DNA of 64,000 nt. Source: Novosphingobium profundi. GTDB taxonomy: Bacteria > Pseudomonadota > Alphaproteobacteria > Sphingomonadales > Sphingomonadaceae. Every line of letters begins with the position of its first letter. Position 1 is the first letter of the stretch. A model generated the notes under the pieces. The model did not search any database, was not told the DNA's origin, and worked only from the letters and a program-made list of their open reading frames with translations. Below, piece by piece: positions 53,220 to 54,688 of the stretch. The position numbers and the translations under genes are program-made. The stretch spans positions 434,001-498,000 of the forward strand of contig NZ_JAIVLF010000004.1 of NCBI RefSeq assembly GCF_020524485.1, written 5' to 3'.

Positions 53220-53247
53220 TTGAACTCGGCACAAGGTTCGCTATGTT
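53220..53247 (+). promoter_or_regulatory. promoter of the candidate small RNA
   Basis: TTGAAC (53220-53225), 16-bp spacer, TATGTT (53242-53247). Transcription should begin about 53253, exactly at the foot of the first hairpin of the predicted RNA. Confidence 0.55.
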
Positions 53248-53252
53248 GGAGC

Positions 53253-53357
53253 CAGCCTGATCGGCGCTACCCTCATGGCCCGATCGGCTGGTGCACTCGA
53301 TGTGCACCTCCTCCCTGAACCTTGGCCACCTCGCGCGTCGCGCGGGGTGGTTTTTTT
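53253..53357 (+). ncRNA. candidate trans-acting small RNA with anti-Shine-Dalgarno motif
   Basis: About 105 nt between sapC and the convergent amidohydrolase gene, with no open reading frame of note. Three hairpins follow each other: (1) CCAGCC-x-GATCGG with CCGATCGGCTGG (53252-53291); (2) GGTGCAC-TCGAT-GTGCACC (53290-53308); (3) CCACC-TCGCGC-GTC-GCGCGG-GGTGG, followed by seven T (53326-53357). Between 2 and 3 is an unpaired CCTCCTCCC (53307-53315), complementary to ribosome-binding sites. Hairpin-exposed CCUCCUCCC is a mark of alphaproteobacterial sRNA families such as suhB/alpha-r14 and the CcsR RNAs, so it may belong with those. Confidence 0.62.
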
Positions 53358-53392
53358 AGGTCTGCACGCACGAGGCGCCAAACCTCCTGCGC

Positions 53393-54394
53393 CTACTGTG
53401 CGGCGAGCGGCCAGCCCTCGCCGCCGTCCTCGCCCCCACGCGGGTGCGCCAGCTCCATGACCGCCGCGGCCTGGACCCGAACCAGGCCCGCAAGCTCCTC
53501 CACCAGAACGTCGACACCCGCGCTCGGCGTGCGCATCTGCGCATCGAGATAGCACGTCCGGTCAATCTCGACCTGGAGCGCGTGGATGCCGCGACGGGGC
53601 GCGGCATGACGGTCGAGGACATAGCCCCCGGCATAGGGCCGATTATGCGCTGCAGCGCGCCCGCAACGGGCAAAATGAGCAAAGGTCGCGGCGATGACCG
53701 CGCCATGGCAACTCGCCCCGAAGCGATCCCCAATCACGATCTCGGCGCCGGTCTGGCCGGGCCGGACCTGGAGCGGGGGCATCGAATGCAGATCGACCAG
53801 CAGCGCCACACCCCAGCGCGCGCGAATTTCCACAAGGCGCTGCGCAAGCGCGGCGTGGTAGGGCGCATGGACCTGCGCGATCCGGGCCTCGACCTCCTCG
53901 CGGCGCAGCGAACGGCGCCACAGCTCACCAATACCTGGCAAGCGCCGGGGAATGAGACCAAGGCCGCTGCGCGCCCGCGGCGACAGGCTCCCGCGCGACG
54001 CACCCGAGCCCCCTTCGCCCGGCATGCGCTCGACCATGCCCCAGTCGACATCCTCGGGCGCACGGTTGAGGTCGATCATCGCCCGCGGCGCATGCGCCAG
54101 AAGCAGGTCGACACCGGTCGCCTCGGCCACCCCGCGCGCAAGGAGATCGACGAAGCGATCTTCCAGCCGCACACTCGCCTGCGCAGCTTCGCGCAGGTCC
54201 CCCAGCAGCGCCTCGGGATAGGCTCTCCCCGCGTGCGGCACGGCCAGCAGGATCGGCATCTCCCCTGCGCCTCCTCCATGCAGCGTGTACGCGGGCTGCG
54301 GCTGCGCATGCCCCGGCACACTGCCTCCCGAAAGCGCGAGGGACGGCGCGTCCGGGCCGGACAACGAATCTGGTGAATGGGGAGCAGGCGACAT
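53393..54394 (-). CDS. N-formylglutamate amidohydrolase
   Basis: A 333-residue enzyme of the N-formylglutamate amidohydrolase family (Hut pathway or related deformylation). The family features are AVPHAGRAYPEALL near residue 55, RLEDRFVDLL, HAPRAMIDLNRAP, VDLHSMPPLQ (metal-binding His), DRFGASCHG and YAGGYVLDRHA. The first 45 residues are Pro/Ser-rich. I chose the ATG at 54394, the later of two. It is divergent from cpdR, a pairing seen in several alphaproteobacteria. Confidence 0.87.
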   Translation of the reverse strand: MSPAPHSPDSLSGPDAPSLALSGGSVPGHAQPQPAYTLHGGGAGEMPILLAVPHAGRAYPEALLGDLREAAQASVRLEDRFVDLLARGVAEATGVDLLLAHAPRAMIDLNRAPEDVDWGMVERMPGEGGSGASRGSLSPRARSGLGLIPRRLPGIGELWRRSLRREEVEARIAQVHAPYHAALAQRLVEIRARWGVALLVDLHSMPPLQVRPGQTGAEIVIGDRFGASCHGAVIAATFAHFARCGRAAAHNRPYAGGYVLDRHAAPRRGIHALQVEIDRTCYLDAQMRTPSAGVDVLVEELAGLVRVQAAAVMELAHPRGGEDGGEGWPLAAQ

Positions 54395-54688
54395 GGGGCG
54401 AACGCTGCCCCGTTCCCACGCCCCTGTCAAAGCCCCGGCGCACAGCCCACCTCGCGGCCTCGCCCCGACAGGGCCCCAAGCCCATTACGGGCAAGAAATT
54501 TAACCCCAACCGCGCTATGACGAGTCGCCCAGAGCACTTTTCCGCGTGATGGATTCACCTGATGATTCCGAATATGCGGAAAAAGCATAATCTGGAGCGG
54601 TTGGTCCGATTCCATCGGATCGGGAGGCCGCTTCACAGGACACCGCCTTGCGGTCGCACACGAACACCAGGTTGGAATAAAACAAGAG

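Follow-up and report, generated by a model that had tools for sequence, protein, structure and literature searches.

What is encoded in the short interval between a SapC-family gene and an N-formylglutamate amidohydrolase (FGase) gene of Novosphingobium profundi, and to which family of regulators does it belong? The interval lies in a 64,000-nt stretch of DNA (the window, to which all positions refer), and an original prediction had placed there a self-contained small RNA (sRNA) gene with an anti-Shine-Dalgarno (anti-SD) stretch, likened to the CcsR and suhB sRNAs. The upstream neighbour, which is conserved, is the SapC-family gene (PF07277; 52205–52990, plus strand). Downstream, the FGase gene is on the minus strand (longest ORF 53393–54430; PF05013 match at 53393–54331, E = 8.4e-63) and is thus convergent, tail to tail, with the sRNA. 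Past FGase lies another conserved neighbour, a single-domain response regulator gene (PF00072; 54689–55063, plus strand), which we take to be CpdR-like.

The predicted promoter (53220–53247, plus strand) has its letters where they were expected, with a −35 box TTGAAC at 53220–53225, a 16-nt spacer, and a −10 box TATGTT at 53242–53247. A simple consensus promoter scan did not list it. Of 127 distinct homologous regions, 95 had the pattern TTG-N15-18-TANNNT at the position of the promoter, compared with 0 of 140 control stretches further upstream. Starting 6 nt past the −10 box, a transcript of ~105 nt (53253–53357, plus strand) is predicted, ending at an intrinsic terminator (53324–53357) that consists of a hairpin at 53324–53352 and the expected run of seven T at 53351–53357. 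Only 35 nt lie between the last T of this run and the end of the FGase frame on the opposite strand (window positions 53357–53393), and therefore transcripts from both sides would meet at the terminator.

The fold of segment 53245–53360 had an energy of −64.4 kcal/mol (z = −6.2), and none of 200 shuffled sequences was equally stable. Folding from the predicted start at about 53253 gave three hairpins on the plus strand, at 53254–53289, 53290–53308 and 53324–53352, and left open CCCUCA (53270–53275) in the conserved C-rich loop of hairpin 1, UCGAU (53297–53301), UCCUCCCUGAACCUU (53309–53323) and the U tail. All three of the tandem hairpins originally described are therefore present, with the correction that in this fold GG at 53290–53291 belongs to hairpin 2 (GGTGCAC/GTGCACC, supported by fold and covariation) and not to hairpin 1. 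A similar adjustment applies to the C-rich motif CCTCCTCCC, which was read directly at 53307–53315 and had been called unpaired: an open C-rich stretch does exist, but the first two C close hairpin 2 and the free part, the anti-SD stretch and predicted seed, is 53309–53323. In the longer piece 53245–53360 the C-rich stretch was partly paired with GGAG at 53248–53251 and with the 3′ end, and its openness therefore hinges on the predicted transcript start.

Conservation was assessed using several sets of relatives. BLAST with a 151-base region found it in 37 of 61 genomes; one of these belongs to another family, and the other 36 are from the genus, which was represented by 37 genomes including the own one. 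A 29-mer gave at least 118 matches; the 80 inspected came mostly from Novosphingobium or Sphingomonadaceae/Sphingomonadales assemblies, and Qipengyuania, Tsuneonella, Pelagerythrobacter and Erythrobacter were also among the matches listed. The invariance of the CCTCCCTGAACCTTGG block in motif-based loci is by construction, because these loci were chosen by this block or by the 29-mer. BLAST-found loci were not selected for the block, and in 30 aligned BLAST-found loci of the genus the unpaired stretch 53309–53323 was near-invariant. Upstream of the core, CCCTCATGG occurred within 140 nt in 141 of 147 homologous loci, a count in which some genomes enter twice; in several other genera the loop carried a C-run such as CCCCCTTTC in its place. 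At one locus (L215 of G084) an FGase match was absent, and so, by pattern search, was the sRNA.

The stems were further evaluated by covariation in an alignment of 61 sequences, obtained from 64 picks thinned by similarity from 147 loci, minus four rows (the truncated L085, L148 and L163 and the overlong L117) and plus L157. In this alignment 95.2% of cells were paired under the consensus structure, versus 35–51% for slid structures, and double changes were present in 14 of 30 pairs. Doubly changed cells numbered 177 against a shuffled mean of 47, and none of 500 shuffles attained the observed value on any of five covariation measures. Most of the covariation resided in hairpin 1, with double changes in 9 of its 11 consensus pairs, and hairpin 3 was paired in 100% of cells. 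Covariation of the stems in relatives, which had been suggested as a check on the gene, was thus confirmed.

A covariance model built from the 61 aligned relatives (R1) matched 170 of 199 Sphingomonadaceae genomes and 86 of 96 genera, with a single match in each positive genome listed; in an order-wide sample one genome of the family (G281) had two. Such multi-genome counts are lower bounds, as filtering is stricter on large sets: genomes G039 and G060 were negative in the large-set search, yet their loci L061 and L060 were positive. Weak or no R1 matches were obtained in 37 Sphingomonadaceae genomes, part of which were resolved. Together, covariation, promoter conservation and wide single-copy presence back the original reading of the locus as an sRNA gene that is self-contained and carries an anti-SD stretch.

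The family of this RNA was addressed with Rfam models. As had been proposed, the suhB (mmgR) model RF00519 was searched, and it matched the window at 53286–53365 (plus strand) over its full length (model positions 1–77) with 35.9 bits and E = 4.9e-6 in a 301-base search. The gathering score of RF00519 is 41 bits and that of RF02344 (ar14) is 58.8 bits, and at the gathering threshold only three tRNAs were found in the window. The shortfall recurred at other R1 loci, since none of 39 scanned with RF00519 (20 plus 19 further) reached 41 bits and the best scored 39.1 bits; RF00519 did not match any of eight further R1-positive loci at E up to 0.1. A locus scanned alongside the 19 (L216) is a paralogue, with 54.6 bits. 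We took weak matches of R1 loci to other Rfam families, for example to isrB in L183 (32.2 bits versus 35), to be chance.

In the known alpha-r8 family (suhB RF00519/MmgR/SisA), the sRNA gene adjoins, and lies downstream of, the FGase gene in most species according to PMC12559287, and the window RNA occupies just this position. It also shares with alpha-r8 a hairpin followed by an unpaired CCUCCCU core before the Rho-independent terminator, a GAAC-TTGG block, a strong terminator and the full-length covariance-model match. It differs in scoring under the Rfam cut-off, in having the core CCUCCUCCCU instead of the exact unpaired 10-mer UUUCCUCCCU (8 of 10 letters shared), and in possessing a long 5′ hairpin with a conserved CCCUCAUGG loop; its predicted length is ~105 nt, and MmgR is reported to have 77 nt and Sphingopyxis SuhB 61 nt.

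The difference in the core is bridged by intermediates. Four loci (L223, L229, L230 and L233) carried the exact TTTCCTCCCT core at the FGase locus, where the UUUCCUCCCU core is joined to the downstream block of the window RNA, and L229 had the CCCTCATGG loop in addition. Moreover, R1 landed on the RF00519 place in all 18 R1-positive genomes of other families among G037–G060, the remaining 6 of these 24 genomes being without an R1 match in that search. Ten FGase-linked alpha-r8 RNAs of other families scored 28.5–42.9 bits with R1, and the three other RF00519 copies of the own genome 20.8 bits or none. Three other-family copies unlinked to FGase (L036–L038) also scored 28–31.7 bits, and R1 alone therefore cannot single out the FGase copy.

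The link to FGase was highly consistent. A convergent FGase gene was within 400 nt in 30 of 30 loci of the genus, in 110 of 118 listed 29-mer loci and in the 30 best family-model loci. Among the eight remaining 29-mer loci, six were without an FGase match (five of these with less than 200 nt of sequence left) and two had FGase 435 and 1,323 nt away. In other Sphingomonadales families, RF00519 copies were FGase-linked, within ~1.5 kb, in 10 of 14 loci. RF00519 copies over the cut-off in the genus were linked to FGase in 0 of 16 cases, and in 0 of 3 in the own genome. FGase synteny, reciprocal model matches and graded intermediates therefore identify the RNA as the positional orthologue of alpha-r8, and its score under the gathering cut-off makes it a diverged orthologue rather than a formal RF00519 member. 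The suhB link of the original prediction accordingly holds as homology but not as formal membership (35.9 versus 41 bits). We thus regard the RNA as a form, specific to this lineage, of an sRNA family already known; at the loci tested, the standard cut-off fails to pick it up. In full, we consider it probable that the FGase-linked RNA is the Sphingomonadaceae orthologue of alpha-r8 (suhB/MmgR/SisA), ~105 nt long, with its own promoter and intrinsic terminator, and that it most likely pairs in trans, assisted by Hfq, with ribosome sites.

Other origins were weighed against this reading. The CCUCCUCCC motif present in the FGase-linked RNA is the CcsR motif, and a C-rich motif is common to this RNA and the CcsR/alpha-r14 (NfeR1, 'cuckoo') group; membership in that group was supported by sub-threshold ar14 scores of 19.2 bits in the window and 31.5–32.8 bits in the relatives L195, L202 and L228. 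We regard such membership as unlikely: the window score is far under the 58.8-bit gathering score, E-values favour suhB over ar14 (4.9e-6 versus 0.12), and the FGase synteny indicates alpha-r8. Furthermore, Rhodobacter CcsR sRNAs are described in PMC10253847 as co-transcribed with a DUF1127 gene, and a Pfam scan of four neighbours (FGase, SapC, FAD oxidase and response regulator) found no such gene. On score and neighbourhood, membership in CcsR1–4/alpha-r14 was rejected, and the CcsR half of the proposed family link is not supported. An independent origin at the FGase locus, with convergence on an anti-SD motif producing the likeness to alpha-r8, would fit the score under the RF00519 cut-off and the distinct hairpin 2 and 5′ hairpin; the same-locus intermediates, which combine the exact alpha-r8 core with the hairpin, the GAACCTTGG block and the terminator, and the coincidence of R1 and RF00519 in other families make this very improbable.

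Two further readings deny the RNA a regulatory role in trans. The T7 hairpin sits between gene ends and could chiefly serve one of the two flanking genes, sapC or the convergent FGase gene, as a terminator or 3′ UTR element, but a conserved promoter lies directly before hairpin 1, and a terminator needs neither the near-invariant unpaired stretch nor the loop; in addition, relatives are reported as trans-acting sRNAs by experiment (PMC12559287 and PMC6563040). A terminator alone is thus a highly improbable explanation, and it was rejected on the conservation of promoter and seed. The ATG within the conserved loop 1 might start a small protein gene. Relative to the conserved block, however, this ATG was spread over all three frames (64, 30 and 16 of 110 regions), in agreement with the proposed absence of a protein frame, and the stems carry compensatory changes. 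The unconserved frame ruled out the coding reading, whose probability we consider negligible.

SuhB of Sphingopyxis granuli TFA, to which the original prediction had pointed, is a sphingomonad RNA of the same broad family; it is reported to be 61 nt long and to bind the thnR leader with Hfq, acting as an Hfq-dependent repressor of thnR translation (PMC6563040). The own genome contains three more RF00519 copies over the cut-off at other loci (46.5–48 bits), which are of TTTCAGGCATCCTCTCCC type. Sphingopyxis SuhB is probably the counterpart of these three TCCTCTCCC-type copies and not of the FGase-linked gene. AbcR1/2 (alpha-r15), a group with its own Rfam model, resemble the window RNA in architecture only, with three stem-loops and two C-rich open motifs; AbcR was absent among the six Rfam matches found in the window at E up to 10. 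AbcR1 and AbcR2 are given as 120 and 114 nt long, with two CU-rich unpaired anti-SD motifs, in PMC7143759.

Extra alpha-r8 copies (L001, L002, L003 and further paralogues) were seen in the genus, where a single genome can have as many as 7 RF00519 matches; many of the extra copies are of TTTCAGGCATCCTCTCCC type. Copies of this type share an upstream element like TTTCGCACTTGCACAA, and some paralogues are clustered a few hundred bases apart, for example near 182 kb of G007:C3.

How might the FGase-linked RNA act? We propose that its own promoter drives a ~105-nt sRNA that ends at the intrinsic terminator, and that the open UCCUCCCUGAACCUU, aided by loop 1, would pair in trans with G-rich ribosome-binding sites with the help of Hfq. 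Pairing would block translation of several mRNAs, probably including some TonB-dependent receptor (TBDR) genes. Precedents come from relatives. According to PMC12559287, the TBDR mRNA CCNA_03574 is a direct target of Caulobacter SisA, whose 10-mer acts immediately 5′ of the start codon to repress it, as shown by compensatory changes in a strain with Caulobacter Hfq; more TBDR mRNAs respond to SisA, and CrfA is its sponge. Sinorhizobium MmgR is described as restraining storage-granule build-up in PMC7143759. Since alpha-r8 relatives repress mRNAs, the FGase-linked RNA should, by analogy, cover ribosome sites. The analysis shows the gene, its structure and conservation, the orthology of the locus and a modest pairing bias to TBDR starts; that the RNA is expressed, binds Hfq and represses particular mRNAs is inferred.

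The own genome does encode Hfq. The gene is of tandem form (L305:1318–1959, G000:C8), with one 213-aa ORF encoding two Hfq domains. In the order-wide sample, two PF17209 matches were found in 33 of 35 Sphingomonadaceae genomes; outside the family, 77 genomes were PF17209-positive, and a second match was seen in just one of them, where the two were on separate contigs. The 37 family genomes selected because R1 was weak or missing included 35 with PF17209, and in 21 of these it matched only once. In the order sample, family genomes had two Hfq matches in 28 of 28 cases with R1 E ≤ 1e-10 and also in 5 of 7 cases with weak or no R1, and no claim of co-evolution of tandem Hfq and R1 is made, as shared ancestry may explain the co-occurrence. 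A double Hfq may already have been published for Novosphingobium.

Predicted pairing with TBDR starts was compared with that of other genes. Plug domains scoring over the cut-off numbered 93 in the own genome and 83 in a second one (G005). A first test with 42 TBDR starts showed no significant bias for the sRNA seeds (p = 0.11–0.25; 3 of 40 shuffled seeds did equally well). Adding 31 + 30 TBDR loci then brought the own-genome set to 94 plug matches, from which 91 distinct starts were obtained, and UCCUCCCUGAACCUU was first used at this stage, once the fold had shown the stretch to be open. Against 536 other genes, UCCUCCCUGAACCUU paired more strongly with the 91 TBDR starts (−10.14 versus −8.75 kcal/mol, p = 0.002). 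For the 86 TBDR starts passing an ad hoc, permissive 'signal-peptide-like' filter, which 385 of the 536 controls also passed, p was 0.0005, and 1 of 60 composition-shuffled seeds did as well. UCCUCCCUGAACCUU and AGGGGG were preset before the repeat in G005, where 70 of 83 plug matches were used; the bias recurred for 70 TBDR starts versus 284 others (p = 0.0019; 4 of 60 shuffled seeds as good). Loop 1 gave p = 0.047 in the own genome and 0.0066 in G005, and shuffles did equally well in 5 of 60 and 4 of 60 cases. A crude script called the gene starts; TBDR clusters partly guided the choice of the 40 own-genome stretches, and the 20 G005 stretches were evenly spaced on one contig.

The bias was not found for the 16S anti-SD tail (p = 0.39 in the own genome and 0.085 in G005) or for the paralogue seed (p = 0.15 and 0.21, respectively). 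The canonical alpha-r8 core, which is not the window RNA's own, gave p = 0.0098, and the CCCCCTTTCG loop of other genera, absent from the window RNA, showed an equally strong bias (p = 0.0009, and 0.0012 in G005). Because this foreign loop does equally well, the bias partly reflects G-rich TBDR sites as such. As a null result preceded the enlargement of the sample and the seeds tried numbered eight, the TBDR bias is suggestive only. TBDR mRNAs may thus be a target class of the FGase-linked RNA, with modest support from predicted pairing, for the class rather than for any single mRNA, and a bias that is not fully seed-specific.

The ribosome sites of TBDR genes were themselves unusual in being G-rich. 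In the own genome, AGGGGG occurred at 15 of 86 TBDR starts versus 3 of 536 other genes (p = 2.4e-11), and AGGAG was depleted (1 of 86 versus 68 of 536). The repeat in G005 was weaker, with AGGGGG at 6 of 70 versus 2 of 284 and AGGGG at 14 of 70 versus 10 of 284.

A wider scenario can be imagined, which we put forward as speculation with the odds against it: in Sphingomonadaceae the ancestral alpha-r8 may have acquired two seeds, loop 1 and the stretch between hairpins, and silence a greatly expanded TBDR set via G-rich ribosome sites (AGGGGG), with shorter multiplied copies taking other targets, in a lineage with mostly tandem double-domain Hfq. The FGase-linked RNA would offer a natural test of how an sRNA diverges once its family has multiplied. 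It is also a single-copy, deletable candidate for the control of nutrient uptake in bacteria with some 80–90 TonB-receptor genes.

For annotation, cut-off-based searches miss the FGase-linked family member in the Sphingomonadaceae genomes tested and mark extra copies elsewhere as suhB, and therefore a regulator with wide conservation in a bacterial family of metabolic importance can stay unannotated or be mistaken for a paralogue. A literature search found no description of the FGase-linked RNA in Novosphingobium; an earlier listing is possible in the papers on Sphingopyxis SuhB or on alpha-r8 phylogeny (Lagares 2016). One database record merits mention here: L074, labelled 'Actinobacteria bacterium 21-64-8', carries the sRNA together with sphingomonad-like FGase and SapC genes and is probably a mislabelled or mixed assembly.
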